From positions 1-60,554 of the forward strand of contig JAFSDP010000016.1 in assembly GCA_017436185.1 (NCBI GenBank): a DNA stretch of 60,554 nucleotides, read 5' to 3'. The notes below the pieces were generated by a model. It saw only the letters and a list, made by a program, of their open reading frames with translations. It was not told the origin of the DNA and searched no databases. A program made the position numbers and the translations under genes. Below are positions 11,564 through 51,936 of this stretch, piece after piece; position 1 is the first letter of the stretch, and every line of letters starts with the position of its first letter. The DNA comes from Alistipes sp. GTDB lineage: Bacteria; Bacteroidota; Bacteroidia; Bacteroidales; Rikenellaceae.

Positions 11564-11903
11564 TGTGACCTTCTATCGGAATGGTCGCATCGACATATCG
11601 TCTCGTGTAGCCAAGATGCTGCATCTTGATGATGGGGATGTGGTCGATGTGGGCGTGCAAGATGGGGAGTATTACCTCTACATCCGCTCGAAGGCATCCG
11701 ATGTGATTGGCCGGCACGAAGCGCAATGCTACGCATCGAAGCCAAAATCGAAGAACTTCCGAGCCTACAGCAAGCGGTTGTGCGATGCCATACTTCGAGC
11801 TACCGCCTCGCCGTTGGCCCGAATCCCTGCTGGTGAGCGTGAGGAGTTTCCGCAGCTCGGAGTAGCCGTGCCGCTCATCATCCGCCTCAACATGGTGGGT
11901 TAA
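11529..11903 (+). CDS. Hypothetical protein, possibly AbrB-like N-terminus
   Basis: 124 aa. Residues about 13-50 (VTFYRNGRIDISSRVAKMLHL then GDVVDVGV) alternate as in a swapped-hairpin AbrB-type DNA-binding fold, but no full match can be claimed. Last gene of the early operon; a late promoter box overlaps its stop codon. Confidence 0.55.
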   Translation: MDSILKQTRRPDVTFYRNGRIDISSRVAKMLHLDDGDVVDVGVQDGEYYLYIRSKASDVIGRHEAQCYASKPKSKNFRAYSKRLCDAILRATASPLARIPAGEREEFPQLGVAVPLIIRLNMVG

Positions 11904-11942
11904 CAGATAAAACGAACCATAAAAACACGACCTCTATATTTG
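11899..11942 (+). promoter_or_regulatory. Late-type phage promoter before the 932-aa virion gene
   Basis: Upstream box GTTAACAGATAAA at 11899-11911 and TATATTTG at 11935-11942; first bases are 36 bp apart, as in five other promoters in this window. The TAnnTTTG element lies within the arm and loop of a terminator hairpin. Confidence 0.7.
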
Positions 11943-11960
11943 CCGATATAGAGGTTTTTT
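11931..11960 (+). terminator. Intrinsic terminator ending the early operon, promoter inside
   Basis: CCTCTATAT (11931-11939), loop TTGCCG, ATATAGAGG (11946-11954), then T6 directly followed by the next ATG. A transcript started at the internal promoter would lack the left arm and escape termination. Confidence 0.85.
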
Positions 11961-14759
11961 ATGGTTTCGGAGATCAAATATAGCGGTTATTCCGCAACGC
12001 CGTCGGACTACGAATGCCCCGATGGAGACTTGGCAGATGTTATTGGGCTGATGCCCGACGAGGGGTCGCTTGCGCCTATCCAACCGCCTGTGAAGGTGAT
12101 GGATATTCAGGGTGATCACCAACTTATGTTTGTGCATAAGGGTGACACCTACACCAACTTCATCTTTAAGGATGGGGCAATGGGTATTTTCTGGGCGCAG
12201 CAGGATGGTAGTCCGCAGCTCATCAGCACCTACGATGCCGAAATCCATCAGGTGACGGCCATTGGCAACACGCTGGTGGTGCTGACATCGAAGGGTATCT
12301 TCTACGCTTTGTGGAAGGGCGTAGAAGATAAGTACATCAATCTGGGACAGATGCCCGAATGTCCCATCTCGTTTGGCTTGCAGGGAGAATTGCGCCGATA
12401 TACCGACCTCGATTACGAGTCTGGCAAAGATACGCACAAGCGGTTTGAGGTTAAATTTAATAAGTTGGAGACATCCAATAGCGAGGAGTTCTCCGATGAA
12501 AATAAGGTAAAGGTTACCAACCAAGTATTGGCGAAAGTAAATCGTTTTGTCGAGGAGGTTTCGACTAACAGCAATCGCTTTATATTCCCATTCTTTGTTC
12601 GATACGCATATCGTATGTATGATGATTCGCTGACTCATCATAGTGCGCCCATATTGATGTTGCCTTGTACGCAGAGCAATCCGAAGGTCTTTGCATACAA
12701 CTACGACACCGAGGGTGTCGGTGCATCAAGCATATCGCTTGACATTTGTACTATCGCCGCCGAATTGGATTATTGTGCCTTAATAGATGAAGCCCAGAGG
12801 ACTACTTTGGCCGAGTGGAAAGACATAATTAAATCAATCGACATTTTTATTTCCGCACCTATCTTTACCTACGACCAAAGTGGCTACTGCAAACGAATAC
12901 TCATTGGGCGAGGCGAGTATTCGCCCGGAAACTTTGTGGGTAAGTTTATCCCTAAAAGAACAACCTTTCCGACGGCCAATGATGGATATGCCATAAAACA
13001 ACACTATCAAAGTTGGGATATATCAAAGTTGGCTGCCTTTGACACCGCACATCTGTCGAGCGAAGATGAAACGCATAAACCAATTCCTACACCCGGTACG
13101 GTTGTGGAACTACCTCGATTTGACGAAAGTGAGATGTTGAGCAAAATAAGAGAGTGCGCAAGTTTCTATTTCCTGACTTCTATTGACATTCAGGATTTGT
13201 CACTCACACGAAAGAAGGTCGAGTTTGAGGATGGGATACTTAAAGCATTGGCTAATAGAGAGGCAATGACGGATGACTATCAGAGCCACGATACGCTGAT
13301 TGCCAAACGTGCACTTGGTTATAATGGCCGAATGAACTTATCGGGAGTTCAACGCAAACTATTTGAGGGCTTTGATCTGTCCTCGATGGTAAGCTATGTG
13401 AATGGCCACGAGTATTTTACTGAATCGATTACTTACGCTGGACCAAACTTCTTAACGAGCGCATCAAGAGCCGGTGAGTATATTTCGACATACACCCACC
13501 TGAAAACGGATGGTGGACTATTTACTTTGCGTAAGAGAAGCAGCCTACTAATGTCGCCCGACCCTAATGATATTTACTACCTATATTACCCCGATACGAG
13601 TGCCGAAAAGATGGGGTTTGTCATCGGAGTCTATGCTAACGGTGGCGACAACTTCGACAATCAAGAGAATAGAAGGTACTTCCTTGAGCCTCACTCGTTC
13701 TTGAATGGTGCGGTATATTTTTCGCTAAAGGGAGATGTAAATAATTATCAGGAAACACCTGTGGCAAGCGATGGTCTGCTTGATGCTAAAAACAAAATCT
13801 ACACCTCCGAGGTTAACAACCCGTTCTTCTTTCCCCTGTTGGGAGTTAATGCTGTTGGTAATGGTGAGGTTATAGGCATTAGTTCTGCCGCCAAAGCATT
13901 GTCGCAGGGTCAGTTTGGTCAGTTCCCCTTGTACGCATTCACCACGGAGGGCGTGTGGGCTTTGGAGGTTGCAGCCAATGGCTCGTACTCGGCTCGTCAG
14001 CCAATCTCACGAGATGTCTGCACCAATCCCAACAGCATCACGCAGATGGATAACACCGTGTTGTTTGCGACCGACCGAGGCATTATGCTCCTTTCCGGTT
14101 CAGAGACGGTTTGCATATCCGATATTCTCAATAGCGAGGAGTCGATGTCGCTTTATGACCTGCCCTATGGTCGTGAGCTTGCGGCGCAAGAGTTGCAACT
14201 CGATGAAGATATCCGAAAAGAGCCGTTCTTGGAGTTTCTCAATGGGCTAAACACGGGGATGATTTACGACTACACCGGACAACGAATCATCGTCTATAAT
14301 CAGCAGAAACAATATGCCTATGTATTCTCGCTGAAGAGCAAGCGGTGGGGTGTGATGTACAGCGACATCTGGAAGGGCATCCCTTCGTACCCCAATGCTT
14401 ATGCACAGGTGCCGGGTATAGGTGTCGTGGACTTCTCGATCATCAACCACGAGAACGTGCAGGGTTACTTTGTAACTCGTCCACTAAAGATGGAGACAAA
14501 AGATATTCTGAAGACCGTAAACACGGTGATTCAGCGTGGCTACTTCAATAAAGGTGCATTGAGAAGCGTGCTGTGGGGATCGAGAGACCTGCGATCGTGG
14601 CATTTGGTAGCCTCCTCCGTTGATCACTATATGCGTGGTTTCCGAGGAACTCCCTACAAGTATTTCCGCATTGGCGGTTTCTTCCAGCTCGGAGCTAAAG
14701 ATCGCATCTTCGGAAGCACGGTGCAGTTCGAGCCGAAGGACAACAATCAGCCGAGATAG
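11961..14759 (+). CDS. Large virion protein, tail or DNA-stabilisation type
   Basis: 932 aa with no membrane segment or catalytic motif. The sequence is rich in beta-strand and aromatic residues with blade-like stretches (for example VWALEVAANG, TVLFATDRGIMLLSG near 650-700), suggesting a beta-propeller. I recall proteins like this from Bacteroidales phage structural modules, sometimes labelled stabilisation or tail proteins. It has its own late-type promoter, lies alone on the plus strand and ends at a shared terminator facing the tail genes. A virion role is inferred. Confidence 0.6.
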   Translation: MVSEIKYSGYSATPSDYECPDGDLADVIGLMPDEGSLAPIQPPVKVMDIQGDHQLMFVHKGDTYTNFIFKDGAMGIFWAQQDGSPQLISTYDAEIHQVTAIGNTLVVLTSKGIFYALWKGVEDKYINLGQMPECPISFGLQGELRRYTDLDYESGKDTHKRFEVKFNKLETSNSEEFSDENKVKVTNQVLAKVNRFVEEVSTNSNRFIFPFFVRYAYRMYDDSLTHHSAPILMLPCTQSNPKVFAYNYDTEGVGASSISLDICTIAAELDYCALIDEAQRTTLAEWKDIIKSIDIFISAPIFTYDQSGYCKRILIGRGEYSPGNFVGKFIPKRTTFPTANDGYAIKQHYQSWDISKLAAFDTAHLSSEDETHKPIPTPGTVVELPRFDESEMLSKIRECASFYFLTSIDIQDLSLTRKKVEFEDGILKALANREAMTDDYQSHDTLIAKRALGYNGRMNLSGVQRKLFEGFDLSSMVSYVNGHEYFTESITYAGPNFLTSASRAGEYISTYTHLKTDGGLFTLRKRSSLLMSPDPNDIYYLYYPDTSAEKMGFVIGVYANGGDNFDNQENRRYFLEPHSFLNGAVYFSLKGDVNNYQETPVASDGLLDAKNKIYTSEVNNPFFFPLLGVNAVGNGEVIGISSAAKALSQGQFGQFPLYAFTTEGVWALEVAANGSYSARQPISRDVCTNPNSITQMDNTVLFATDRGIMLLSGSETVCISDILNSEESMSLYDLPYGRELAAQELQLDEDIRKEPFLEFLNGLNTGMIYDYTGQRIIVYNQQKQYAYVFSLKSKRWGVMYSDIWKGIPSYPNAYAQVPGIGVVDFSIINHENVQGYFVTRPLKMETKDILKTVNTVIQRGYFNKGALRSVLWGSRDLRSWHLVASSVDHYMRGFRGTPYKYFRIGGFFQLGAKDRIFGSTVQFEPKDNNQPR

Positions 14760-14763
14760 AAAA

Positions 14764-14787
14764 AGGGCGCAGTTTGTTCTGCGCCCT
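14764..14787. terminator. Bidirectional intrinsic terminator
   Basis: AGGGCGCAG (14764-14772), loop TTTGTT, CTGCGCCCT (14779-14787) between two convergent operons. A tract AAAA on the left serves the minus strand. Confidence 0.8.
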
Positions 14788-14829
14788 CCCCAACAACAAT
14801 ACAAAAAAACTAATCACCTAACCGCCACC

Positions 14830-15345
14830 TTAAAAGGGCGTTTGAGTTCTTCTTATTCTTCCCATTCGAGCGTTGAGCCGCTCCATAATCTGGCTGTGTG
14901 CCTCATCCATCTTGTTGCCCCAATTCACCGAGCTTTCGGGTTTGGTGATGCTAAACCAATCGGTCAGCACTCGGCACACTAAAAACTCGTGAAGCAATCC
15001 TGCAAGCAGCGTCACCGTAGTCTTGGAGAACTGCTCCGGAACGGAGAGTGTATAGACATACTCCGAAGGCTCGGTGAGGATATCATCACGCTCCTCCAAT
15101 TCATCACACTCCACCTTGCTATAGGGGTATAAGGCCTCTACGGTCGCCGCATAGGCGAGGTTAAGCACTCGGCTAACTCGGTCGATGTTGCCCTGCTCGG
15201 CTATGTCCAATACATAGTGTCGTGCCGGCTCCGTTCCCTCTTGTATCAGATCGCCCTCGATATAGGCATAGTTCTTGATGTCATAGAGGAGTTCTTTGCG
15301 GTGAAGCGTTATCTTAATCGTCTTTCTTTTCTCTTGCTTAATCAT
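14830..15345 (-). CDS. Virion-module protein, paralogue of the gene upstream
   Basis: 171 aa. It shares with the product of the preceding gene a layout of IT.HR/INK start, a YTLSVPEQF-type strand, then a hydrophobic helix ending in a Trp-Phe pair (TDWFSI versus SKWFRL). ATGA overlap with that gene. The pair may be a neck or tail-completion component, inferred from position only. Confidence 0.6.
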   Translation of the reverse strand: MIKQEKRKTIKITLHRKELLYDIKNYAYIEGDLIQEGTEPARHYVLDIAEQGNIDRVSRVLNLAYAATVEALYPYSKVECDELEERDDILTEPSEYVYTLSVPEQFSKTTVTLLAGLLHEFLVCRVLTDWFSITKPESSVNWGNKMDEAHSQIMERLNARMGRIRRTQTPF

Positions 15346-15830
15346 AGCGTACTCTCGGTGTAAGTGGGTCGCACAGGGCGTGTGCGGTGGTAGATTTTCG
15401 TGACGGCATCATCCAAGAAACTAACCGCCTCCTCTAAATACGAGTCAGTCTCCGAGCGGTTCACAAGTCGAAACCATTTGCTCGTGACGAAGAGCACAAA
15501 GTAGTTGAAGAGCGACGATTGAATGCTCTTGACGAGCGTGTCGTCAAAGGCATCAGGGAGGCTTAATGTAGCCGTGTAGTTGTTGCTCATATCAACTTCA
15601 CGCTTTACCTCGTGGTCGCTTACCTCCGAAATGTAGTGTTTGAGTGGCGCAGTTGCTCCATCGCACGCTGCAACCCAAAACCGCTCAAGCATAAGTTGGT
15701 CTGCATCTTTGGTGAAGATGCGATTGTATGCGCCCTCCTCGCCCTGCAGCTTCGCACCTACATAGCTTGTGGTCTTGGCCACCTCGTCGTACACATCGGC
15801 CTTATTTATAGTAAGCGTAACATCCTTCAT
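15342..15830 (-). CDS. Virion-module protein, paralogue of the gene downstream
   Basis: 162 aa from the ATG at 15830 (MKDVTLTINKADVYDEVAKT). The frame is open to 15857, but that extension would cover the promoter. The TAnnTTTG element ends 5 bp before this ATG, so the mRNA would be leaderless or nearly so. Shares layout with the next gene, so a local duplication is likely. Confidence 0.6.
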   Translation of the reverse strand: MKDVTLTINKADVYDEVAKTTSYVGAKLQGEEGAYNRIFTKDADQLMLERFWVAACDGATAPLKHYISEVSDHEVKREVDMSNNYTATLSLPDAFDDTLVKSIQSSLFNYFVLFVTSKWFRLVNRSETDSYLEEAVSFLDDAVTKIYHRTRPVRPTYTESTL

Positions 15831-15834
15831 ATCG

Positions 15835-15878
15835 CAAAGGTATGTTCCCACAACCAACCATCCTCTTTATTTATTAAC
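15835..15878 (-). promoter_or_regulatory. Late-type phage promoter
   Basis: Box GTTAATAAATAAA from 15878 down to 15866 and TACCTTTG from 15842 to 15835, first bases 36 bp apart. The box overlaps the stop codon of the preceding small gene. Confidence 0.75.
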
Positions 15879-15968
15879 AAAGAAAGTTGCACCCTCTACT
15901 ATCATATAGAATAGATAGTCAGGCACATCCTCGGTGAGTTGTCGCACAAAGAAATCAATGTTCTCCAT
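15867..15968 (-). CDS. 33-aa acidic peptide
   Basis: MENIDFFVRQLTEDVPDYLF is followed by YMIVEGATFFVNK. It overlaps the end of the HExxH protein by 14 bp, and its stop lies in the late promoter box. Good spacing, no function known. Confidence 0.5.
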   Translation of the reverse strand: MENIDFFVRQLTEDVPDYLFYMIVEGATFFVNK

Positions 15969-16769: not shown

Positions 16770-16783
16770 AGTTGTTAAGATTA

Positions 16784-16810
16784 AGGGGAGGGGCGAAACG
16801 CTCCTCCCCT
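16784..16810 (-). terminator. Hairpin, weak terminator or attenuator
   Basis: AGGGGAGG (16784-16791) and CCTCCCCT (16803-16810) pair with a GCG/CGC extension. Only a weak T-rich tail follows on the minus strand. Confidence 0.45.
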
Positions 16811-16819
16811 GATTGTTCG

Positions 16820-17035: not shown

Positions 17036-17037
17036 AG

Positions 17038-17538: not shown

Positions 17539-17559
17539 AAGTTAAACTTTTAATTGATT

Positions 17560-18042: not shown

Positions 18043-18064
18043 AGTTACCTCCTTTCCTTATTGG

Positions 18065-30377: not shown

Positions 30378-31121
30378 TTATCGTGCCTCTCTTGCGATGT
30401 CGAAGATTGATTCAGACTTCTTGGGACGGGCTGCGGTCGTATTCGAGCCACCAAGCATAGCGACACCGTCATCTTGGTTTCGCTTGCGCAGACGCTCCTC
30501 GATGCGCTCGTTGCGCCCCTTTACCTCTCCCTCGTGTGCTGCCGTAGCAACATCATCGTCATACGAGATGGCCTTGCGTAGCATCTCGACGGTCTCAATC
30601 GAGAACTTACCCATAATGCCATCGGCGATGATTTGGCCTAACTTCTCCATCAGTCGATCAAGCTCATCATCGCCCAAGCCCTTCTCGGTCTGGTAGGCAT
30701 CGATCTGCTCGAAAGAGGTGGCGAGGTTCTCTTGGTACTGCTTCTCCAACTTCTCGTTCTCTGCTACACGCTCAACAAACTCCTTGTTGGCGGCAGCAAT
30801 CTGCTCCTGTCGTTCGGGGTCATCAAGAGCCTCTCGAATGTCCGAGCCGAACTGACGCACGAGATTGACTACAGGATCATCGCCATCACGCCAGCTCATC
30901 AGGAATGCAGCCGAGCGAGGATCGGAGGTGAACATCGTAGCCAGCGACTTCTCACGGTCTTGGTAGTCGGACATCTTCTTGTCGTAATCGTCGTAATCAT
31001 CGCCAATTCGCCCAAAAAGGGCCTCGTCATCAGCGAAATCCATTTCGGGGTGTCGAGCCTTCATTCGCTCCAACACCAAATCCCGTTTTGTTTTAGTCTG
31101 GTTATTTTCAATGCTTTCCAT
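30378..31121 (-). CDS. Scaffold-like protein
   Basis: 247 aa, very acidic, almost entirely helical with coiled-coil stretches (about 95-150) and a basic C-terminal tail (RNERIEERLRKRNQ...), directly upstream of the major capsid gene. This matches capsid assembly scaffolds. Own late promoter. Confidence 0.7.
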   Translation of the reverse strand: MESIENNQTKTKRDLVLERMKARHPEMDFADDEALFGRIGDDYDDYDKKMSDYQDREKSLATMFTSDPRSAAFLMSWRDGDDPVVNLVRQFGSDIREALDDPERQEQIAAANKEFVERVAENEKLEKQYQENLATSFEQIDAYQTEKGLGDDELDRLMEKLGQIIADGIMGKFSIETVEMLRKAISYDDDVATAAHEGEVKGRNERIEERLRKRNQDDGVAMLGGSNTTAARPKKSESIFDIAREAR

Positions 31122-31150: not shown

Positions 31151-31194
31151 CAAAAATAGACCCTCAAAATCGGGTTGTCTTTTTATTTATTAAC
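31151..31194 (-). promoter_or_regulatory. Late-type promoter of the scaffold/capsid operon
   Basis: Box GTTAATAAATAAA from 31194 to 31182 and TATTTTTG from 31158 to 31151; 36 bp between first bases. About 25 nt leader to the ATG. Confidence 0.78.
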
Positions 31195-31218
31195 CGAGTG
31201 AAAAACTAATTTTGAGGG
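31161..31218. promoter_or_regulatory. Inverted repeat spanning the divergent capsid/terminase promoters
   Basis: CCCTCAAAAT (31161-31170) and ATTTTGAGGG (31209-31218) form a perfect 10-bp inverted repeat centred on the late box. The plus-strand arm carries the terminase TAATTTTG element. Confidence 0.5.
31207..31214 (+). promoter_or_regulatory. TAnnTTTG element before the terminase genes
   Basis: TAATTTTG lies 32 bp upstream of the ATG at 31246. No GTTAATAAATAAA box occurs 36 bp upstream of it, so it belongs to another promoter class. Confidence 0.45.
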
Positions 31219-31245: not shown

Positions 31246-31710
31246 ATGAAAAGTCGAGGAAGCGTTTTTGAGTACGCACAAGAGCGAGACGACGACTTGA
31301 TGCGTGCCTATCTTGAGCAGATTTCACTGTGCAGAAACATCTATCTGCCACGAGTCTTTAATGCGGTTGTAAAAATGCCCTCAAAACGATTTTGGGTGAG
31401 TCCCGAAAGGGCATCGATTGTGATTGCCGAAATGTCACGAGGGAATAAACTCCCCAAGATGCGTCCGACCAAGAGAGCGATGTATGAGGAGATATATCGG
31501 CGTGTGATGTTGTTGCAGTCGGCTCATCCGGAAGAGTCGTTAAGCCAACTTGTTTTTCAGGTGGTGCAAGAGCCTGCACCGCAATTCTACCTCACGGCAG
31601 GGTCTGCCAAAGTCATCATTTGTAAGGCTCGAAAATTTTATTTCAGGCGCAGACTTCGTAGGTTTCAATCGCCCCATCGAGCGAATGAAAACGACAACAA
31701 GGAGGTATGA
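31246..31710 (+). CDS. Candidate small terminase subunit or HTH protein
   Basis: 154 aa, basic and helical. RPTKRAMYEEIYRRV and PAPQFYLTAGSAKVIICKARK resemble a small protein found right before TerL in Bacteroidales phages. It overlaps the terL start by ATGA. DNA recognition for packaging is the obvious guess. Confidence 0.55.
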   Translation: MKSRGSVFEYAQERDDDLMRAYLEQISLCRNIYLPRVFNAVVKMPSKRFWVSPERASIVIAEMSRGNKLPKMRPTKRAMYEEIYRRVMLLQSAHPEESLSQLVFQVVQEPAPQFYLTAGSAKVIICKARKFYFRRRLRRFQSPHRANENDNKEV

Positions 31711-33794
31711 GAACCGAGACAGGCAACATATTATCGGAGAATACTCGACGAATATCTGTCATCAATGCACCCTTCAATCCCTACACGGGAGAGGGTGCAG
31801 TTGGTGAACGTGAGAAGGTCGAGATACCGGACTTCCCAATACGCACGCAGTACCTCCCTGTGCAAATGCTCAAGGTGCCGCTTGTTAAACAGATTTTGGC
31901 CGCAGGGTCCATCAAGAAGTTTATCACCGACACACTTAATGTAGAGTACACCGATGAAGAGAAGCAAAAGGTTATCGAGGCTTTTGTTCGTGTACGCAAC
32001 AAAGAGGACTTCTGCTTTTGGGCCGCAACCTATGTCTATATCAAGAATAAAGGTGGTGGCGAAGATGTGCTCTTTCGGCTCACTCGCCCACAACGAAGAT
32101 TTGTTGCAAGGTTGGAGAAAAAGCGAAGGGCCGGCAAGCCGATTCGCATAGTTCTTCTCAAGGCTCGACAATGGGGTGGTTCAACCACATCGCAGCTCTA
32201 TATGGCTTGGTTGCAACTCGTCCATAAGGTTGGTCTTAATTCACTCATCATTGCCCATCAAGGTATGGCATCGGATGAGATTAAGGATATGTTCGACCGT
32301 ATGATTAAGTCCTATCCCACCTCGTTGCTCTATGAGATGGGTGCGCAGTACGATGAGAACGAGTCGAAGTTTGTCGGTGTTGGTAAGTCGGGAGCAATAC
32401 ACCGAGTGCCACAACGAAATTGCAAAATCAAACTCGGTACAGCAGAGCGACCCGACTCGTGTCGTGGTGGCGACTATAACCTTGTGCATTGCTCCGAGGT
32501 AGGCATCTGGAAGAAGACCGACGGAAAGAGTCCGGAAGACATTGTCCGCTCGGCTTGTTCTGGCATTTTGCTTGAACCTTATACGATGATCGTGTACGAG
32601 AGTACAGCCAATGGTACGGGTAACTTCTTCCAACGAGAGTATGATGCTGCCAAGCGTGGGCAGTCGCAATTTGAGGCGATGTTCGTTTCGTGGTTCGACA
32701 TCGATCAATACTCAATGCCGATAGAGGATGTGGAAACATTCGCAACCAACCTTTGGCTGAATCGCAACAATGAGAATGCAAACTCGAATCGTGAAGAGAG
32801 TGGCCGTTATTTGTGGTGGCTATGGGAAAAGGGTGCTACGCTCGAAGCCATCAATTGGTATATACAGGAACGCTCGAAGTATAACGATCACGGACAAATG
32901 GCCTCGGAGTACCCGTCAGACGATGTGGAGGCTTTTGTACATTCGGGTGCACGAGTATTTGATAGGTACAAAGTCGAATTACTGCGAGGAGCTTGCAAAG
33001 CACCGAAGTATATCGGCGATGTTTATGGCGATGCAGATACCGGAGAAGATTGCCTAAAGAATCTGCGTTTCTCGGAGGATAGGCAAGGCCTTCTATGGGT
33101 GTGGTCGTTGCCGGAGATTGATGAGAACGTAAAAGTAGTTAATCGATACTTGGCGATTGTCGATATTGGTGGCCGCTCAAAGAAGGCGGATTGGTCGGTG
33201 ATTACCGTTATTGACCGAATGTTTATGATGGAGGGCGGAAAGCCTGCTATCGTGGCACAATGGTACGGCCATATCGATATGGACCTCTTGGCGTGGAAGT
33301 CGGCTCAAATAGCGGCTTTTTACGACAATGCCTTATTGGTTATTGAGAGTAATACGGCAGAGACGAAAGATAGAGAGCGCAATGTAGATGGCGACCAATC
33401 GGCTTATATCCTCAATCAAATTAAGGGCGTTTACGACAATCTCTACGCTCGTAAGCAGAGCGAAGAGGACATCAAGCAGAAAGCACCACGAAAGTTGGGA
33501 TTCCACACGAACACACGCACGAAACCGATGATTATCTCAACGCTCGTAAAGATGGTGCGAGAATCGGGATATGTAGAACGAGACGAGCGATGTTTGGATG
33601 AATACCTCACCTACGAAAAGAAGGGAAGTGTTTATGCGGCCATTGCCGGTAAGCACGACGACCTGCTTATGACACGAGCCATAGGGTTACATATCTGCTA
33701 CTACGAGATGGATATGCCCGTAATCGTAAACCGAGTACACCAACCTCTTGCAGTAACAAGAAGCAGACGACCTATGACAGAGGCTACGATATAA
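31707..33794 (+). CDS. terL: Terminase large subunit
   Basis: 695 aa. Walker A-like LLKARQWGGSTTSQ at about 150-163, Walker B-like NLVHCSEVG about 258-266, the ATPase coupling motif (VYESTANGTGN, about 298-308) and the nuclease Asp in AIVDIGG (about 482-488) with a later HDDLLMT. It cuts and pumps DNA into the prohead. It stands on the plus strand between two minus-strand late operons. Confidence 0.95.
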   Translation: MRTETGNILSENTRRISVINAPFNPYTGEGAVGEREKVEIPDFPIRTQYLPVQMLKVPLVKQILAAGSIKKFITDTLNVEYTDEEKQKVIEAFVRVRNKEDFCFWAATYVYIKNKGGGEDVLFRLTRPQRRFVARLEKKRRAGKPIRIVLLKARQWGGSTTSQLYMAWLQLVHKVGLNSLIIAHQGMASDEIKDMFDRMIKSYPTSLLYEMGAQYDENESKFVGVGKSGAIHRVPQRNCKIKLGTAERPDSCRGGDYNLVHCSEVGIWKKTDGKSPEDIVRSACSGILLEPYTMIVYESTANGTGNFFQREYDAAKRGQSQFEAMFVSWFDIDQYSMPIEDVETFATNLWLNRNNENANSNREESGRYLWWLWEKGATLEAINWYIQERSKYNDHGQMASEYPSDDVEAFVHSGARVFDRYKVELLRGACKAPKYIGDVYGDADTGEDCLKNLRFSEDRQGLLWVWSLPEIDENVKVVNRYLAIVDIGGRSKKADWSVITVIDRMFMMEGGKPAIVAQWYGHIDMDLLAWKSAQIAAFYDNALLVIESNTAETKDRERNVDGDQSAYILNQIKGVYDNLYARKQSEEDIKQKAPRKLGFHTNTRTKPMIISTLVKMVRESGYVERDERCLDEYLTYEKKGSVYAAIAGKHDDLLMTRAIGLHICYYEMDMPVIVNRVHQPLAVTRSRRPMTEATI

Positions 33795-33823: not shown

Positions 33824-35776
33824 TTATGCTGCACGCATTGTGCTGTAACCTCTGTTGACGGCATCCATATTTGCACCTTGCTGCACTTGGGCAAGAAGTT
33901 CGGGAGATAACCCATTCGGGGTTTGACCCTGCTCCAATTGCTCCTGCTGGCTCTGTAGGCTTTGCAACAACTCGTCTGCAAAGGGGAAGTCACCGACCTG
34001 CAACAACTGTTGGATTGAGATTTGATTTGCTCTCCACAGCTCCATCAACATCTCGTTGGCAATCTGTCGATATACGGGAGTTGTCGTGCTTTCGATGATG
34101 CTCAAATCAAACTCTACATCACGCACCTTCTTCGGGTCGTATTCAATCTGCGCTCCGTTGCCTCGGATGTTGAACACTCGTTTGCTGTCGTAAAACTGTT
34201 GGATATTCTTCACATCCTTGTACGCACCATCTACGATGAACATACTGAAGCTCTCCAACATATCCAGCAGCGAGTTTGCCGAGTTCTGCGTCTGCTGTGC
34301 GTAGAGGCTTGCGCTCGTACCGGAATAGCCGGGTTTGCCCTGCAATGCACCATTTACACCCGATATATCCTCGAAGAATTTAAGCTGAATGTTCAACAAC
34401 TCCGAAATACCGATGTTGGTTGCATTGTTGGATATTTGCTGCGGAAGAGGTGCGCCATTCTTGGTCTTGATGGCTATGACACCATCGAAGCGGCTCCACT
34501 CGTCGGCAATATCCTCCAATGACATATTCGTGGGCAAACACTCTTCGGGGAAGATTAAGACACCCTTTGCGCTTGCACGCATAATCCAATCGTACAACGT
34601 AATCAGTCGGTTGGTGTAACGCTGCTGGTCGATTACATCAGCCACAAACGAATGAATCTCGCCATCGATATAGGGGTAAGCCTTGAAGACATACGGATGG
34701 CTCTTGTGCTCGTAGGGAGTCTCACCCTCATCCAGAATGTCACCAAAGGGCGAGAGGTAGTAGAAATACCAATAATCGTCGATAAACCACTCGGCCTTAA
34801 TCAACGGAATGTCATCGACGGACATCCCCAATGCGGTACCCTGCGATATACGATTGTTGTTCACCACCTCGACCATTTCGTGGTAGTCCTCAATGTCAAT
34901 CTTGTACACGTCACCGTTGTTGTAGTCGTGGCAACGATAACGGGGCTTGCTCTCCTTTCTCCACACCTCAATCACACGGCAGCGAGAATCGTTTTGCGGA
35001 TAGAGAAAATCAAATGTTTTCATATAGGAGTAGCCAAACTCCTCGTATATCAATGCAATGGCATCACGGTCCCGTGCGTGCGAATAGATACGGCTCAACT
35101 TCTCGTAGTCCTTTGTCGATTTGGCAAACTTCGAGCAAAGATCGCCAAAGCTCACATCGTGAATCTCGCCTACAATGTTGCAGTCCCAACCTCGGAAGTC
35201 TCGCATATTGCCGTCGATGAAGAAATTGTTGGGATTGACATAGTCCGTCCAACAGTCGAGTTTGTTATCTCTCCATCCATACCACTTTCGATAGACAACC
35301 AATCCTCCGATCAGAAACTCCTCCATTGTTCGGGCATCGACCTCCGAGCGTCTGTTGAGTTGCATATTGTACTTCAGCACCTCCGACATCGTTTCTCCGA
35401 GCTTCTTCTCGTCTCGGTCACGAGCTGCGCAGGTAGGCTCTTTCGCCTGACCTCGGTACACACCAAGCACGTTGCGCAGCAATCTGCGAATGAGGTTGTT
35501 CTTCAAAGGGATGTTGCCCTGCGATTGGATGTACTTCTCCTCGGTCATCTGCACGCCATCGACGGTGACAATGTCCTTCCATTGGTCACCATAGGCATAT
35601 CGTTTATTGCGTTCACGCTCCTCACGGAAACGGAACATATTGTCCCAATGCCGTTGGGCCTCCATCAAAATCGAGAAGGCTCGTTTGTCACCCATCGACT
35701 TGGCCGCTTTCACGGTGTCTATCGAAGTCTTGGGCCGTATTTTACTTAATGGTATGAGTCTTTCTTTCGCTGCCAT
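33824..35776 (-). CDS. Portal protein
   Basis: 650 aa from the ATG at 35776 (MAAKERLIPLSKIRP); the open frame up to 35818 runs through the terminator/promoter hairpin and is not used. N-terminal helices, GWRDNKLDCWTDYVNPNNFF (about 180-200), a clip/wing region, and the C-terminal helical barrel region with NQISIQQLLQVGD and a Gln-rich end match P22-like portals of Bacteroidales phages (NIGISELLNIQLKFFEDISG, GTSASLYAQQTQ). Confidence 0.88.
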   Translation of the reverse strand: MAAKERLIPLSKIRPKTSIDTVKAAKSMGDKRAFSILMEAQRHWDNMFRFREERERNKRYAYGDQWKDIVTVDGVQMTEEKYIQSQGNIPLKNNLIRRLLRNVLGVYRGQAKEPTCAARDRDEKKLGETMSEVLKYNMQLNRRSEVDARTMEEFLIGGLVVYRKWYGWRDNKLDCWTDYVNPNNFFIDGNMRDFRGWDCNIVGEIHDVSFGDLCSKFAKSTKDYEKLSRIYSHARDRDAIALIYEEFGYSYMKTFDFLYPQNDSRCRVIEVWRKESKPRYRCHDYNNGDVYKIDIEDYHEMVEVVNNNRISQGTALGMSVDDIPLIKAEWFIDDYWYFYYLSPFGDILDEGETPYEHKSHPYVFKAYPYIDGEIHSFVADVIDQQRYTNRLITLYDWIMRASAKGVLIFPEECLPTNMSLEDIADEWSRFDGVIAIKTKNGAPLPQQISNNATNIGISELLNIQLKFFEDISGVNGALQGKPGYSGTSASLYAQQTQNSANSLLDMLESFSMFIVDGAYKDVKNIQQFYDSKRVFNIRGNGAQIEYDPKKVRDVEFDLSIIESTTTPVYRQIANEMLMELWRANQISIQQLLQVGDFPFADELLQSLQSQQEQLEQGQTPNGLSPELLAQVQQGANMDAVNRGYSTMRAA

Positions 35777-35822
35777 AAAAAAGAGTGTGGTAATTACCTG
35801 TTCAAAGGTAACCACCACACTC
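35777..35822 (-). terminator. Intrinsic terminator before portal with embedded promoter
   Basis: On the minus strand a 17-bp stem (arms 35822-35806 and 35799-35783, two G-T pairs), loop TTGAAC, then T6 touching the portal ATG. It lies 20 bp after the stop of the giant gene. Confidence 0.88.
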
Positions 35823-35846
35823 CTCTGCTCCGTTTTATTTATTAAC
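35803..35846 (-). promoter_or_regulatory. Late-type promoter of the portal gene
   Basis: Box GTTAATAAATAAA from 35846 to 35834, overlapping the giant gene's stop; TACCTTTG from 35810 to 35803 in the hairpin. Spacing again 36 bp. Transcripts begin past the left arm and cannot form the terminator. Confidence 0.78.
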
Positions 35847-47800: not shown

Positions 47801-50148
47801 TTCATTGTTGCAGGGTGAATTTTGCCATCGGTCTGGCTGATTCGGCTATCCACCTGCGCATCGCTCTGGGCTATCTTGCCGTCGATATCGTCACGCACCG
47901 CCTGATACATACCCTCTACGGTTGATTTGGCGTTCAGGTAGTTAAGCACGATTTGATTTGCGCTATCGTCCTGCCCTAATTTTTTACTCTCCAAGAGGCT
48001 TGCAAGGGGATTCTCGCCCAAGAACTCATCTACATCTGTATCTTCAGGTAGAGCATAGAGTCTGCGTACAGCATTGGCACACTCCTCCAGCATCGTTCTT
48101 GCATCGTTCTTCTCCTGCGGAGTTTGCAAGGTATAGCCATTCTCAAACGATTGCTCTACCTCTACCTCCTCGGCAGGTGTAGCCGCATCAATTTGGTGCT
48201 TCAGCAAGCCGATACGCACGCCATCCATTCGTTGCAACTCACCAACATAGGTTACGGCTGCTTTCTTCTGTTCGGGGGTAAGGTTTGCATCTGCGAGAAT
48301 CTCACGCACGGCCTTTCCACGAGTCAGCGCATCGGTCGATGCAAGCTGCTCCTTGAATGTTCCCCACAAATCGGCACTGCCGAAAGCATTGATGGCATCA
48401 ACATCGGCACGCTTCAGACGACGCTTGGCACGAGGATATTCTACCGCATAGGCTCCCGTCTTCACGGTAGAGAAGAAACCGCCCATCAATCCTACACCGA
48501 GGAATGTTTCTATCAGGTTTTCTCGGTTGAAGATACCCGTATTTTCATCTGTGTCTCTTGTCTGATCTCCAACGAGATACGAATTAAGAATGCCGCCATA
48601 GATTTCCTCGCCAAACTCACCGACTACACCATTCCATTGGGCCTTTCGTTCCAAATTCGTGATGAATTGCACGGCATCGTTGTAGCTCATATTATCGATG
48701 GTTTTCAACACCCCGTTAGGTGTAATCTTACGGACGACATCCCCACTCAATTTAGAGAGACCTGTATATTTACCGATGGGGGCAATATAGCCACCGGCCA
48801 TTTCGGATGCACGTTCAATTGTGCCTGCCATAATAGCATCATACCACGCTCGGAGTGCATCATCACCTTCCGTATGGCCTCCATATATCGGTCGGCCATT
48901 CTCATCCAGATCATACTCAATGTCGCCCGACATTCTACGCAGAGCATCTGCCGTTGTACCTAAAGCACCCGTAGTAGCGGTCATCGTTGCTGCGCCAACC
49001 ACATCTGCGCCCACTCGTGTAGCTGCTTTTGTTGCAAGATATTTTGCCGCATTCTTTCTGATGGCCTCCTTGCCGTAACGCTTCAGCGCATAGCGTGTGA
49101 GTTTTGCCGATGCCCCTTTGCCCAATGCGGCAGCAGGGTTGATGGCCATCTCCAACATAAAAGGAATAGACTCCGCCGACACTTGACCTGCCTTGTAGCC
49201 ATATCCGAGATACGAGCCAAAGTAGGCATTGGTTGCCATCTCAACAGCCTTTGCATCAAGCAAAGTGCGTTGTGCTTCGGTCAGTTCGCCACCGCTATCA
49301 GCTACGTCAAGGGCTTCAAGGAGTGTGCCGCTGTTCGCCATCTCCGAAAGACCCATATCCCACGTTGTAGGGTCGAACACCTTCTGGCCGAAACCTCGCA
49401 ATGCGCCACCAACAAATGAAGTCTCGTTTCCACTCCCATCTGCACCATTTCTGTCTGCCTCGTCAATGATGCGTTGTGCGTTCCGCAAAGCGTCGTTGGC
49501 CGCACTGTAGGCATCCAAATCCTTGCGACGCTTCGTGTTTGCACGAGACATTGTCATCAGCATACCCATTTGGCCGGGAACGAAATCTCCAAGACTTCGA
49601 TTATCATTTATCTTGCCTTGAACAAAATCCTGCATCCCTGCAACCTGCTCACGGGTAGCCGACATATCGGCCAGCTCCTGCTCGTCAATGGTGGGTTGCT
49701 CGGCTTCAGGCGTTGGGGTATTTGCTCCAGAGCGATAGAGTGAGTTGATTGTACCCATCGGCCCCGGTACAAGGCTTGCAAGATTCGTCTTCTGCGGTTG
49801 CTCTACGGGTGCAGGCTGTTGGGGTTGTTGGGTCGAAGGAATGTTATCAACGCCGAATCTGTTGATGTCACGTTCGAACTCGGCCTCACGCTCCTCCAAC
49901 TGCTTCTGCTCGACCTGTGCAGGGTCTCGAAGGTCGGCATCCAAGAAATCCTCCGGTGCGTGCGATGCGGTGGGGGAGTGGGTTGTACCCTTTGGGGTAA
50001 TAAAAGCCTTATAGTCGGCAGGTTTCACGCCATATCGGACACCTTGATCCTCGATAACGGTATATGCGTCAGGATAATCTGTGGCAAACTTGGCAATGTC
50101 CTCTTCTCGAACTTTGTAGCGTTTGCCATTAACATTAAATATAGGCAT
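35842..50148 (-). CDS. 4768-aa polyvalent ejection-type protein
   Basis: A huge protein after two ejection-type genes and before portal. Visible parts: N-terminal small domain (1-50); a hydrophobic/helical zone (about 290-420, 530-600); a Gln/Glu-rich linker (about 960-1100, 1290-1390); HEVVAHHG (1434-1441); an LPD1-like block (FGFRGVEFGNW...SLGGQLALAFG...) with HEWFH (1976-1980); an ADP-ribosyltransferase-like domain starting YHGTP (2257); an EIQSKRHQDGR segment (about 2797), LPD5-like; HENTH (3246-3250); HEVVGHKG (3456-3463); YDYYIPLRGFDE (about 3990); an LPD38-like region (about 4200-4230, RNPDFLLSNFMRD); a membrane-like helix (about 4420-4440); and a charged helical end. Domain names are from memory of polyvalent proteins injected by phages. 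Confidence 0.8.
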   Translation of the reverse strand: MPIFNVNGKRYKVREEDIAKFATDYPDAYTVIEDQGVRYGVKPADYKAFITPKGTTHSPTASHAPEDFLDADLRDPAQVEQKQLEEREAEFERDINRFGVDNIPSTQQPQQPAPVEQPQKTNLASLVPGPMGTINSLYRSGANTPTPEAEQPTIDEQELADMSATREQVAGMQDFVQGKINDNRSLGDFVPGQMGMLMTMSRANTKRRKDLDAYSAANDALRNAQRIIDEADRNGADGSGNETSFVGGALRGFGQKVFDPTTWDMGLSEMANSGTLLEALDVADSGGELTEAQRTLLDAKAVEMATNAYFGSYLGYGYKAGQVSAESIPFMLEMAINPAAALGKGASAKLTRYALKRYGKEAIRKNAAKYLATKAATRVGADVVGAATMTATTGALGTTADALRRMSGDIEYDLDENGRPIYGGHTEGDDALRAWYDAIMAGTIERASEMAGGYIAPIGKYTGLSKLSGDVVRKITPNGVLKTIDNMSYNDAVQFITNLERKAQWNGVVGEFGEEIYGGILNSYLVGDQTRDTDENTGIFNRENLIETFLGVGLMGGFFSTVKTGAYAVEYPRAKRRLKRADVDAINAFGSADLWGTFKEQLASTDALTRGKAVREILADANLTPEQKKAAVTYVGELQRMDGVRIGLLKHQIDAATPAEEVEVEQSFENGYTLQTPQEKNDARTMLEECANAVRRLYALPEDTDVDEFLGENPLASLLESKKLGQDDSANQIVLNYLNAKSTVEGMYQAVRDDIDGKIAQSDAQVDSRISQTDGKIHPATMKQDDRAVYIMSGEVVLLDDGTIDTANSSESIIVKDAETGKMEFSDPASLLNVGEVEDAEQTKEALREQIRQSVAGQAEAEILGTLAFAQGDTYVLTDEEGVQHQAQIVADNGDGTVQVALDGATEAVQMPKEQVQAMNDATNRGRAAAYIEQQNAQRESAMQEVAEEQQPIEEQPIEQTQEPQVEESALSRIPTDENGNQLFEQAPAQDTWSALVELNDGDTTEATDTAQQMLDNAKKELDKATSVKPKGGATVAEIQQDKAERKARIAEAQQKVDYWTEVLNAQQAVQEQAVQEVAQTEEVEETIAQEPNAGIPQTKLNNEEIDAIVSSMEQNAAIAPEIELTPENWVAEFGEDGVIETPIGEVKMGENQYFKLAQKGRESKLGMIKPTLQAPDIIVEERSSAKDGQLAERNSSYVFVKAFTNADGTRTYKFTSVTIRKEGREVVISNQEKETPRIKRLLKEGMLTYISEATLPSEPTHSTQGDQQTIPSGATLSDSKDTTSEPKNQEVEQEISQEEQIAPQEVAEQTLPATEQTAQETQAEAVPTQEQTEQEEQKQRKQQRVRIKVKKDEEARRKPLRKRAQAWAKKVGVEAVLIERFEDVENESARKAIQMHEEQKSGQRIPGWYSGGKVYIYLPHATDISDLDQTYIHEVVAHHGMKKMLGEEGYNQFCLKVWDMMEQTLTERELNRWLAYPGVKGDKAKAGDEYIAHLAETTESLTELDQSVWDKIVELIRDALRQLGVSLEGDAVAFDPSVEFTNKLIVDALHASKRNLKQTAKTATTKEKAKTATPKAQKVSDPKIEDFGEKIGGARKDVARGRLRDTAKLSMKDLTTLKDPDKILSRKDIVKFMQEGLMTEQDAMTLMALNAAARSKWTVRKGRILQKYRDVALQWERGEQVKVEVTDAEIDAYLAGMNESWRSQPNARKKAQADLLHSILVPFEAYHSTYEKLNYPSVYRNLKGTVIKEYHSGKYFVQSELGARRGMVFNSLQQAIDYVEKAYPVVSMELSKPKSGKADSSEKVGHLHVVKDSLYGYRIKSRSIPGNIFLSGHFRTKAEAEAYLQENAETLRSREEQMIFTLMGSDIGAVERSGVDYRQGRDITPEEFQSTFGFRGVEFGNWVPQAERQLYLNKTYDAIMDFCKVVGISPKAFSLGGQLALAFGSRGKSKAIAHYEPMKMAINLTRMNGAGSLAHEWFHALDNYLARQATGNALDMATDKRRAERDIVANTFSQLVRRMATLDYSTRSRNAGAYWNEVWERAARLFETYVYNELGGQQTISPLLVRETTLFDDTLVEDFGQAYPYPSAEENAIMKPYFDALFGALEERTDEQGNSILFRTVENDKARQFAIIERSNPMLDDYHTGIRSVEDIRTFDEAVAEARTAAEQGGWEELASYPDITNDMLEEAQQSGRITIYSSKPIANGTFVTPSLMQASDYAGGEEVYSKVVRTSDVAWINTDEGQMAASEDVRFRTTYHGTPATFERFDHSFMGSGEGNRVFGWGTYVTEEKGIGEWYAKVLTDPINEFSTERRAIIDAKIELDKAERFAESLREEIQFAKDNIAFFEERIRNGATGYELEEAQENIENSKENTLYNEQALKNAEAKIESARAAVAQAQEVYERARVRGNVYQVEIPDDNGYNYLSWEGRLTPKQMQMIASQAEKEGLTDLFYRDEDSGELVFNGSMTSGEFEYKDLERSLGSDKAASEFLSRAGFTGIMYFGDGGNQDVRNYVIFNDADLEIKERTSFRTVPTFLSNAAVALEGIKQEKATPQQWLAMLKKAGGIKAGEDKWIGLSEWLEQSEAKSLTKQEVLDYINENQIQIEETTYSSNSAVETTPEFKALQEEFEQIAQGYEDEVRRNIDEYEAKLAKKYNLPENYFDTTVLNSDESKAHSSLSRITAEEIYNAAWVDLVDRYGDDFEIAFWRGYDGIRVDNAEVACILLGLPIDRPIYHLREDYTTKGLEGNREIALTVPTIEPWNENDEVHFGDAGEGRTIAWIRFGETTDEDGKRVLVIDEIQSKRHQDGREKGYRPSDVDKYLKDNNIEVVETGEFYEFYRDGELDRRFSKGLLHYNIKAAKDLYVAGYEKSDIPEVPFEKNWAELAMKRMLRYAAEHGFDKVAWTKGDQQAERYHIGNVVTRILSYEGQDNGQEVKHVEIHLTDRSRRRMTIDNNGVVVSSEEDFVNAGTPFADVVGKEVARKVLNGEGEDATLVLRESTEGVGDAIMQLMKKYGVSRPADLYAVISAEDKATLDAYHTQKEVTAKEIDADGLRIGGEGMRAFYDQMLPSFMRKYAKKWGATVQDVTLPNVEEAGRTMHSVDVTDSMRESVMQGQTMFRVADAKNLFKELEERYKKLDKSDTEALNKWRDEKAAAIQSVLTAISDELGFEPPIMVFNGGIDTQEIADYIVSTYKDDVGVDVDKDWVKSYIEKSKARGLYWPQAGFITSDVSNYDESNDVFTVSATLMHENTHHLVGLHFDKRDLEAIWDEAVKANHPLALLVEKLYKGESNAKKGNELLAFAIGNITKNFRNDLFNYIKGRTVSEENLLDKSEYSLPLGRFALSEILNIYRNDLRRSKTEVGRGDRSANRRDSRVDRLLQGRGRIRRKAVKEAAELFASQLGTPINIVERISDITAPNPRLQSRKRAAKGWYDATTKQVVVVLPNAVSVEDVRATIFHEVVGHKGMRETVGEKRYNAFLEKVYRGASQTIRERIARRAATLGWDFNLATDEYLASLAEQGFEERENRNFFEVVRDLFLDLLSDAKIALGYRINDNDIRYMLWRTYQMQRSKGAMAVAEDVVMQQRLGVGEFDTRFRVASDAPITYDNFYESTEAVFTQVERPDRPADYVSRSGSEYWYGNDERGDYVIRGADHWSDVGKSQEAIEKKKALVEDAYIQRNDNKVISWRPRRYTSWDRYVDMRGSRRPVASCDWSIVVSDQDTRREHSVKHTTLYGKAYLSEMERIDNDDIRFRETTSPSDDVRMRVAHTPYRETLIRQQYEERIKSGMYQSMEAMQDSMQSLHDTMLMILKEEGYGDMYIEDVASFENAYIGENRLSSTNLAEANAFANTVFQRLVDAISAIAPNEEARTELIDYMFAKHGLERNEKMAEREAKREYDQQESRIASKAISASGAKTMTELIAEKRQKDYAGLTALTGKKHVSDAEKEAQRMVEEYENSHETDEIWERVQEVRKAILSKLYEGGLLSKEQMEQILDMYDYYIPLRGFDEKTVTDQYAYLTSTRGSFSSPIRKAGGRESKADDPFANLSAMAESAILQANRNMLVKQRFLNFVLRHPSDLVSVNRLWLRYDEANQEWVPEMPNILETDSPEEVARKVAEHEQAMKELSKAYPDRYKVSGDQTSMPYKVPSKETLKEHQVIVKRNGVDYVLTINGSPRLAQALNGLTNPDNDISGAIGAVLNAAQWVNRGLSYAYTTRNPDFLLSNFMRDMLYTNQMVWIKESPNYALTFHKNYLKANPVQMKILYSKYREGTLDMSDPMEAMFYKFVINGGETGYVNLRDVEQHKSELKEKLDRSGGKLSVQEGWQLLGDRLDEFNQAVENCARFAAFMTSQQMGRSLDRSIYDAKEISINFNKKGAGAKFMGANGQTALGNAAAFTSGFGRSMYIFWNAAIQGTTNFGRQVKRHPAKAFTAVASWFILGALMAYLGYDDDDEDAKNSYFNNPEYVRRSNIMFHLGDGNFAKIPLPIEVQAVYGLGELMVSAMSGKEDYSDGELASAIVGQMTKILPIDFMEGRGGFHAFIPSAAKTAVEASTNTSWTGLPIYKDTPYNKDMPNWTKAYSSTNKYLVNLAATLNELSGGDKYTKGAIDLNPAIIEYLLNGYFGGYFATADKLTKTAEMVVGARDFDPRGVLFLNRVLAKSDDRTQYRAVNNKYYEAKKEYETTKRRLRNYEHDTDEGIFNFAEKINFLYNSEAYRRMELFDIYRGDIEDLEREIKEATSDEEKEALNAELMTLKSLTVDAIYGTEEEDDNDSR

Positions 50149-50174
50149 ATATTATTGATTGTTATGTTATTACC

Positions 50175-51314
50175 TTAATTGTCGTCAGGGTTGTACATTA
50201 CATCATAGTCGGCATCGCTGCCTCCATAGGTGTCACCATCCAAATATGAGTCGATACCATATTCCTTTACGGGGTCAATCTTCGATAAAGAGAGCATATA
50301 TTCCTTAACCGAGGGGTCTTTCGTCCAATTCTGTTTAATAAAGTCGTCTTTCTGCTGTGCAGTCTTCTTCGCCATTAATGCTTTGAATAAGTCTTGACTC
50401 AATTTGCGCGTGTTGCCTATGCCTGCATCAACCATCCGATCGAAGACCTGCTGCATCGAACCCTTCCAAACACTTCCGTAGATAGATATCGGATTGCCTT
50501 TTTCATCGGCAAATTGAATCGGAGCTTGTCGGAGTTTGTTCGCAACCTGTTGAGCATATCTACCTCTGGCGATATTTTCTTGTGCTGCACGCTGTTTTGT
50601 GCTCTCGGCTGCTGCGTGCGCTCTCGCCTTCGCACCTTGTTCTGCCTGAAACTCCTGACTATCCTCTCGTGCCGCATCTGCGTGTGCTCTCGTTTTTTCG
50701 GCATTCTCCTTCTGCCAAGCGAATTGCGCAGCCGCTCTTGCTTCTGCACGAGCTGCACGCTCATCGGCAAGACGGTCACGCTCACGCTGATATGCGGTAG
50801 CCTCATCTGCCTTATGATCGGCCCACAGCTTGTCGAACTGCGTCTGGTAACGTTGGCGACGAGCCTCCCGATCTGCGTAGAATTTTTCCCAACGAGCTTG
50901 GTTGGCGGCAGAAAGCGAATTCTTGGGGTCTTTTTCCTGATAGGGGCCATACTTAACTGCCGTGTGCATATCGGAGATGGCCGAGATGCCGTCACCGAGC
51001 GACAAGATAAGTTGCTGTATCGCCTTGCGCTTCTTCTCCTTGCGCAGCTCCTCTGCGGTAGGCTCTTCGTAGCCGGTGGTGCGACGAGCAATCTCATCGA
51101 CAATCTCACGATTGGATCGCTTGGCCAATCCGGGTGTAGCAGTAGCAGGGGCAACGGTTCCCTTCATCCCTTGATCGAGGGTTTGGGTAGTCGATGCGGT
51201 GGCAACAGGTTGCGTCTGTTGCTTCACGACCTGCTCGGCTTGGGGCTGTTGAGCAGGTGCTGCGGCAGCCGTCTTCTTCGGCTTACCGTTCAAAATCTCA
51301 TCCTTTACACTCAT
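50175..51314 (-). CDS. Internal virion/ejection-type protein
   Basis: 379 aa. Low-complexity Ala/Gln/Pro N-terminus, a hydrophobic helix (KAIQQLILSLGDGISAIS, about 97-114) and a long Ala/Arg/Glu coiled coil (about 135-260). The composition and place between a T7 gp14-like gene and the giant protein suit a middle ejection protein. Confidence 0.6.
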   Translation of the reverse strand: MSVKDEILNGKPKKTAAAAPAQQPQAEQVVKQQTQPVATASTTQTLDQGMKGTVAPATATPGLAKRSNREIVDEIARRTTGYEEPTAEELRKEKKRKAIQQLILSLGDGISAISDMHTAVKYGPYQEKDPKNSLSAANQARWEKFYADREARRQRYQTQFDKLWADHKADEATAYQRERDRLADERAARAEARAAAQFAWQKENAEKTRAHADAAREDSQEFQAEQGAKARAHAAAESTKQRAAQENIARGRYAQQVANKLRQAPIQFADEKGNPISIYGSVWKGSMQQVFDRMVDAGIGNTRKLSQDLFKALMAKKTAQQKDDFIKQNWTKDPSVKEYMLSLSKIDPVKEYGIDSYLDGDTYGGSDADYDVMYNPDDN

Positions 51315-51320
51315 ACCATA

Positions 51321-51854
51321 CTACTTCTTCGAGAATGCGTCAACCAAAGATGTGATACCGCTACCAAGCGATTCACCTGCTGAAGACAAACCCTCTGCGG
51401 ACTTTTGTGCGGCTGTTGCTCGTTGCATCTCCACATCGATGAGTTGCTTATTCAGGCTCTCCTTGTTTGCCATATACTGCTGCTCGATGGTGTCCTTGCG
51501 GTCTGCGGCCTCGGCTGCGATTTGGCTGGCCGTGTCGGTCATTGCTCGTGCCGATGCTGCTTTCTCTGCGGCCACCGACTCATTGGTGCCACCCATCACG
51601 GCTGCCGTAGCTGCGGCCTGACGATTGCGGTTGCGCATTGCCTCCTGTGTCATCGTCAAAAGGCGTTGAGCATCTGCTCGTTGGGTCGCATCTTCGTTGT
51701 AACGACGATCGAACCAATCCTGATTCTCCTTCTGCTGATCTGCGATTATTTTTCTTGCTCTTCGAGCCGATCTTCGAGCGGCTGCATTGCTTGCGATGGT
51801 GCCACCAATCTTCATAGCGGCACTAACTCCTGCGCCAATAGCACTACCTATCAT
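51321..51854 (-). CDS. Small ejection-type protein (gp14/gp7-like)
   Basis: 177 aa from the ATG at 51854 (MIGSAIGAGVSAAMKIGG); the frame extends to 51896 but would cover the promoter. A Gly/Ala-rich membrane-active N-terminus followed by an Ala/Arg/Glu coiled coil resembles internal core proteins of podoviruses that form the periplasmic channel. Confidence 0.65.
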   Translation of the reverse strand: MIGSAIGAGVSAAMKIGGTIASNAAARRSARRARKIIADQQKENQDWFDRRYNEDATQRADAQRLLTMTQEAMRNRNRQAAATAAVMGGTNESVAAEKAASARAMTDTASQIAAEAADRKDTIEQQYMANKESLNKQLIDVEMQRATAAQKSAEGLSSAGESLGSGITSLVDAFSKK

Positions 51855-51870
51855 AGGGATATGTGTGTTA

Positions 51871-51914
51871 GTTAATAAATATAATTCTGACCGCAATTTA
51901 AGGGGTTATTTTTG
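51871..51914 (+). promoter_or_regulatory. Late-type promoter of the DUF5681-like gene
   Basis: Box GTTAATAAATATA (51871-51883) and TATTTTTG (51907-51914), 36 bp apart. Interleaved with the opposite promoter. Confidence 0.75.
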
Positions 51915-51936
51915 CTACATCATTTTATTTATTTAC
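51893..51936 (-). promoter_or_regulatory. Late-type promoter of the ejection operon
   Basis: Box GTAAATAAATAAA from 51936 to 51924 and TAAATTGC from 51900 to 51893, spacing 36 bp. The downstream element is degenerate. It drives 51854, 51314 and the giant gene. Confidence 0.55.

Follow-up and report, generated by a model that had tools for sequence, protein, structure and literature searches.

Among the class II activators that act at phage promoters are C/Mor of Mu, Ogr of P2 and CII of lambda, phage proteins that switch genes on from a site overlapping or near the -35 element. The middle promoters of phage T4 are switched on by sigma appropriation, with a MotA box and AsiA, and the MotA box lies 12 ± 1 base pairs (bp) from the -10 element, centred at -30 (PMC2988021). 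Promoters of the Bacteroidetes primary sigma factor carry TAnnTTTG at -7, normally paired with TTTG near -33 (PMC7366714). Among the open-access matches listed, which cover neither subscription papers nor preprints, searches for late promoters or activators of Bacteroides or Bacteroidetes phages gave no late-gene switch of a Bacteroidales phage and no mention of the box described below. Here we analyse a stretch of 60,554 nucleotides from Alistipes sp. (contig JAFSDP010000016.1; the whole stretch is hereafter ‘the window’), in which an earlier note had described six phage promoters that share a box at a fixed distance from TAnnTTTG. In our reading this late box probably binds one phage-encoded activator, which replaces recognition of the -33 element and works with RNA polymerase carrying the host primary sigma factor. 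A candidate for the activator is p154, a small protein encoded next to the large terminase subunit, TerL.

The six box positions given in the earlier note were all confirmed, with the exact consensus GTTAATAAATAAA at 15878(-), 31194(-) and 35846(-). TAnnTTTG stands 36 bp past the start of the box in perfect form at five of the six sites; the sixth, 51936(-), has TAAATTGC instead, as had been claimed. The box is 13 bp long and is separated from the -7 element by 23 bp. The elements in the window are as follows:

11899..11911, plus strand: late box A, GTTAACAGATAAA
11935..11942, plus strand: -7 element A, TATATTTG, starting 36 bp past the start of box A
15866..15878, minus strand: late box B, exact consensus GTTAATAAATAAA
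15835..15842, minus strand: -7 element B, TACCTTTG
31182..31194, minus strand: late box C, exact consensus GTTAATAAATAAA, reversed and spanning the p154-TerL core promoter
31151..31158, minus strand: -7 element C, TATTTTTG
35834..35846, minus strand: late box D, exact consensus GTTAATAAATAAA
35803..35810, minus strand: -7 element D, TACCTTTG
51924..51936, minus strand: late box E, GTAAATAAATAAA, facing box F, 65 bp apart
51893..51900, minus strand: -7 element E, degenerate, TAAATTGC
51871..51883, plus strand: late box F, GTTAATAAATATA
51907..51914, plus strand: -7 element F, TATTTTTG
31207..31214, plus strand: -7 element serving p154-TerL, TAATTTTG, with no box 36 bp ahead of it

Boxes with at most two mismatches occur nine times in the window against 0.91 expected, a count that none of 100 shuffles reached; the nine include two shifted matches that overlap the true boxes at the divergent pair, and one match in the host part, at 56721, with only TATCTTTT at +36. 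The combination of the box with TAnnTTTG at exactly 36 bp is found five times (0 of 300 shuffles), and all other distances from 20 to 50 bp combined yield one. The same preference is seen in IMG/VR: 9 of the 14 loci that carry the exact consensus pattern at spacing 36 belong to the same phage family, as opposed to 1 of 188 loci examined at other spacings (a sample, as the scan of spacings 24–40 is represented by the matches listed), this one being a weak 82-bit TerL match. The TTCG version of the pattern gave six loci, five of them in the phage family and four in a single distant relative, G023. The ten genomes reached via exact hits had one match apiece.

Relatives were found via p932, the protein of 932 amino acids encoded behind box A, and include three Bacteroides phages that have been isolated: BS-TP4, BKO1-TP3 and, at a greater distance, BF1-TP2. 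BS-TP4 and BKO1-TP3 have six boxes each in the same register, mostly GTAAAAAGATAAA or GTAAATAGTTAAA, with a -7 element that is sometimes TAnnTTCG. Four of the six boxes (scaffold, portal, p191 and p96) precede homologues of window genes; the remaining two precede units that contain a p932 or p171 homologue, but another gene comes first. An alignment scan of IMG/VR with TerL gave 52 loci, many of them near-identical. When box and -7 element were scored separately and spacings of 29–43 were permitted, the spacing was 36 at 63 of 63 sites, six extra rows at 38 being the same boxes with an overlapping -7 element. A scored site is present in 43 of the 52 loci, and in the other nine a candidate 13-mer, picked by inspection, lies at the same place. 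The search of relatives for the box with TAnnTTTG at +36, which the earlier note had put forward as a check, was positive.

Comparison with the T4 middle promoters shows a similar logic: a phage-specific box stands in place of the -35 element, the -10/-7 element of the host is retained, the distance is short and fixed, and many units are switched together (PMC2988021). The distance itself differs, 23 bp from box to -7 element at 63/63 sites of this phage family versus 12 ± 1 bp between MotA box and -10 element, so that the system is not a member of the T4 type. No Pfam match to MotA or AsiA was found among the 22 window proteins scanned, p154 included.

In a logo of 44 nonredundant sites (out of 92 scored), information is located at -36 to -24 and in the -7 element, with weak signals at positions -40 and -23; between -22 and -1 no strong signal is seen. 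The -7 element has TA, TT and G in 44/44 sites, letters that carried weight in the scan from which the sites were taken, and ends in TTTG in 38 and in TTCG in 6. The phage sites thus resemble Bacteroidetes primary-sigma promoters in having TAnnTTTG (in a minority, TAnnTTCG) and differ from them in that a 13-bp box takes the -33 place and reaches further upstream (PMC7366714). As had been supposed, the box occupies the -33 position and extends upstream of it: in a set of 76 sites (score at least 19, 17 genomes), TTTG at -30 to -19 from TA is missing from all 76, and TTG is present in five. With the -7 element placed as in Bacteroides, the box would be centred near -41 of the transcript, a class II activator position. 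The setting resembles that of C/Mor, Ogr and CII in a site at or beside the -35 region from which a phage protein would turn genes on. It differs in its Bacteroidetes primary sigma factor and TAnnTTTG, and p154 of the window fits no Pfam model at E≤1.

The next gene belongs to one of eight late families (p932, p141, DUF4376, p171, scaffold, portal, p191 and p96) at 67 of the 76 sites. In the window, the genes behind the boxes are:

11961..14759, plus strand: p932, large late protein (PHROG 32516), with a homologue in 19/19 phages compared
15342..15857, minus strand: p171, late protein, with the first in-frame ATG past the promoter at 15830
30378..31121, minus strand: scaffold-like gene that opens the capsid operon, its role suggested by position
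33824..35818 as listed, minus strand: portal gene, with a likely ATG start at 35776, downstream of promoter D
51321..51896, minus strand: p191, perhaps an internal virion protein (T7 gp14-like by a weak match, E 0.019)
51946..52236, plus strand: p96, small conserved protein

The statement that every box stands ahead of a gene for the virion, packaging or ejection is right for the most part, given the scaffold-like gene of the capsid operon, the portal gene and, weakly, p191; p932, p171 and p96 have no assigned function. It needs one correction: no box lies in register at the terminase unit (31246-33794). Two details of these promoters can be added. The 65-bp spacing of boxes E and F is kept in 9/9 phages where both boxes were found; since the two core promoters overlap, polymerase can probably occupy only one of them at a time. 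At promoter B, the first in-frame ATG of p171 (15830) is only 12 nucleotides from the TA of the -7 element (15830-15842), and the transcript may be leaderless.

The sequence of the box drifts between phages and its position stays fixed, boxes inside one phage tending to be alike. The box reads GTTAACxGATAAA in genomes G018, G020 and G024, GTTAATA(G/C)(A/T)TAAA in G011 and G014, and mostly AGTAAxArATAAA in G016 and G019. The distant G023 has exact TTCGTTGGTTGCA four times, each 36 bp before TAnnTTTG, and three of these precede scaffold, portal and p191; TTCGTTGGTTGCA also precedes the scaffold gene of locus L094. GTCATTGGTTGCA is common to L095 and L101, and CCCATTAACCGCA occurs in L096. These 13-mers of the distant relatives stand in the same register and mostly ahead of the same genes. 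In BF1-TP2, boxes resembling GGTAAGATTTATC lie at the same distance from a slightly altered -7 element before scaffold and portal and at one further site, with a weaker one before p96; the first letter of the -7 element differs at three of four sites. In 19 of 23 genomes, an all-pairs comparison that was blind to the known box placed the peak, counting ties, between -35 and -37; the exceptions are BF1-TP2, with a peak at -31 to -33, and G008, G009 and G025, which have no clear peak there.

The hallmark of an activator-dependent late promoter, a conserved box at a fixed distance ahead of several late units, is therefore present. The earlier proposal that a phage activator or alternative factor binds the box is supported by the fixed register, the box in place of a -33 element, the position ahead of late genes (67/76), the drift at a fixed position and the absence of the pattern from the other 267 genomes of one host family, described below. 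The preservation of TAnnTTTG points to an activator that works with the host primary sigma factor rather than to an alternative sigma factor. That a protein binds the box, and that it activates from there, is predicted from the DNA sequence.

Bound between 36 and 24 bp ahead of the -7 element, the activator would stand in for the -33 element and recruit or position host polymerase that still reads TAnnTTTG, so that the late transcription units, with six promoters in this phage, would be turned on together. If p154 is this protein, the most likely one in our view, it would be made early or in the middle of the programme from a promoter without a box, and would bind the boxes of the other late units. 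On the capsid-operon box, p154 would cover the p154-TerL promoter and limit its own synthesis and that of the terminase. The two genes are:

31246..31710, plus strand: p154, candidate activator or small terminase, adjoining TerL
31707..33794, plus strand: TerL, terminase large subunit, 71–72% identical to its BS-TP4 and BKO1-TP3 counterparts

TerL is labelled ‘tail spike protein’ in PQ571277.1, PQ571269.1 and PQ571263.1.

We assign the role of activator to p154 tentatively, at rather less than an even chance. A serious alternative, to which we give only slightly under an even chance, is that the activator is indeed phage-encoded but is another protein, and that p154 is the small terminase subunit; the rest of our reading is compatible with this. 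Gene content speaks for p154. Nine families occur in each of the 17 genomes that bear the box: TerL, portal, capsid, scaffold-like, p932, p214, p171, p140 and p154. No early gene family reaches all 17, of which several are incomplete genomes, and this argues against a different regulator. p154 is present in 18/18 long records, among them the switched-box genomes G023 and G025, and in 19/19 compared genomes. In the window, p154-TerL is the only structural unit (units being read from gene direction) without a box in register, and in BS-TP4 a rhomboid-like gene parts p154 from TerL; both observations fit less well with a plain small terminase.

The position of the capsid box relative to p154 is also conserved. 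In the window the reversed capsid box lies 12 bp before the p154-TerL -7 element, TAATTTTG (31182-31214). With capsid and portal boxes sorted by their distance to TerL, a TAnnTT[TC]G of p154 was found 7–13 bp past the reversed capsid box for 25 of 29 distinct capsid boxes in the relatives; the 15 portal boxes in the same comparison are followed by none. The spread of 7–13 bp speaks against activation of the p154 promoter and fits occlusion.

As to the protein itself, p154 is basic (isoelectric point 9.1–11.5), and its AlphaFold2 model consists of two similar three-helix units (pLDDT 90.9). In 14 of 19 members its two halves are more alike than almost every shuffle (at most 8 of 300 shuffles as high; none in 6 members), and in the other five they are not (47–67 of 300). 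There are 167 relatives of p154 at E≤0.001, and none of the 120 matches listed has a functional name. The p154 of the window matches no Pfam family at E≤1, and no small-terminase name was found for p154 among the Pfam, PHROGs and NCBIfam matches. With 52 aligned p154 relatives, no family of the Mor/C, Ogr or CII type was present among the 25 listed of 28 weakly matched families.

Several observations weigh against this reading, some of them against the role of p154 in particular. The p154 gene lies directly upstream of TerL with a 4-bp overlap, and this is the usual place of a small terminase gene. Fold searches with the p154 model returned no clear structural relative. The window does not contain the left part of the phage, so that early genes located there, which may include another activator, are out of view. 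Box distance correlates slightly better with p154 distance over 45 loci (0.80) than with that of TerL (0.76) or scaffold (0.71); the box is, however, tracked better by portal in a 27-row subset and by scaffold in the 39 loci of the main dialect. Covariation between box and p154 is inseparable from shared ancestry, there being only 2–3 independent pairs. It is these few independent changes in the tree, together with the subset correlations, that keep our assignment of p154 tentative. At the level of the sites, 9 of the 76 lie before genes outside the eight late families (one reverse transcriptase and four other genes) or have no called gene (four), and in several phages one of the two facing promoters, E or F, is weak in its box or in its -7 element.

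Another candidate is encoded just before the first late gene, at 11529-11903: a small AbrB-like protein with a weak AbrB match (E 0.0079). Its location is in favour of an activator other than p154. The gene is, however, found in only 10 of the 18 p154-positive records (16 of 32 records overall, which may be fragments), and its homologue lies behind a late box in BS-TP4 and BKO1-TP3.

p154 could also be both things at once, small terminase and late activator: a tandem helix-turn-helix protein whose paired units recognise the box, which turns on the virion operons by way of polymerase with the host primary sigma factor and shuts off its own terminase operon from the reversed box, and whose recognition sequence has changed several times with the geometry fixed. 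We consider this combination unlikely.

We regard it as very improbable that the host primary sigma factor, or another host factor, reads the box directly as an extended promoter element, with no phage protein involved. TAnnTTTG is the host -7 consensus (PMC7366714), and the rigid register relative to it is what a single bound polymerase would produce. Against this stands a survey of 268 genomes of one host family, itself chosen through a genome with an exact hit: pattern and p154 occur, side by side, only in the genome that led to the choice, and both are absent from the other 267. The numerous equally spaced matches in host genomes that were to speak against a phage system were accordingly not seen in this family. 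Moreover, box sequences differ greatly among phages with the same genes, which a shared host factor would scarcely permit.

An activator acting with the host sigma factor is likewise preferred to a phage-derived alternative sigma factor that would recognise the box as well as the -7 element, a reading that seems to us no more probable than the host element. Such a factor would account for a phage-specific box, but the -7 element follows the consensus of the host (TA, TT and G in 44/44, as weighted in the scan) and is kept when the box switches, except for its first letter at 3/4 sites of BF1-TP2; p154, for its part, lacks a Pfam match at E≤1. Least probable of all is a repressor site that silences the late genes in the lysogen: the site does overlap the promoter and prophages need silencing, but a fixed distance of 36 bp from the -7 element is not required of an operator, nor would an operator take the place of the -33 element, and promoters without a -33 element would be expected to be weak and activator-dependent.

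Elsewhere in the phage, an open frame of 4768 amino acids (35842-50148, minus strand) lies behind p191 and is 58.6% identical over 1012 residues to a BS-TP4 protein of 5391 amino acids. BS-TP4 and BKO1-TP3 carry a reverse transcriptase gene between the tail and lysis genes (L045:35987-37477 and L047:23818-25308, respectively), possibly a diversity-generating element; it has no blastp match in the window. At 53980-59464, beside the integrase, lie host genes, those for pyruvate phosphate dikinase and a tRNA methyltransferase-like protein; on its right side the prophage probably ends at about 53.8-54.0 kb.

Bacteroidales rank among the major bacteria of the gut, and the late regulon of one of their phage families is legible here from sequence alone, in several box dialects with one geometry. 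The dialects are a natural experiment on how a regulator changes along with its sites. The analysis also yields a short list of testable candidate proteins, with p154 the first, and a possible phage-controlled promoter for use in laboratory Bacteroides.

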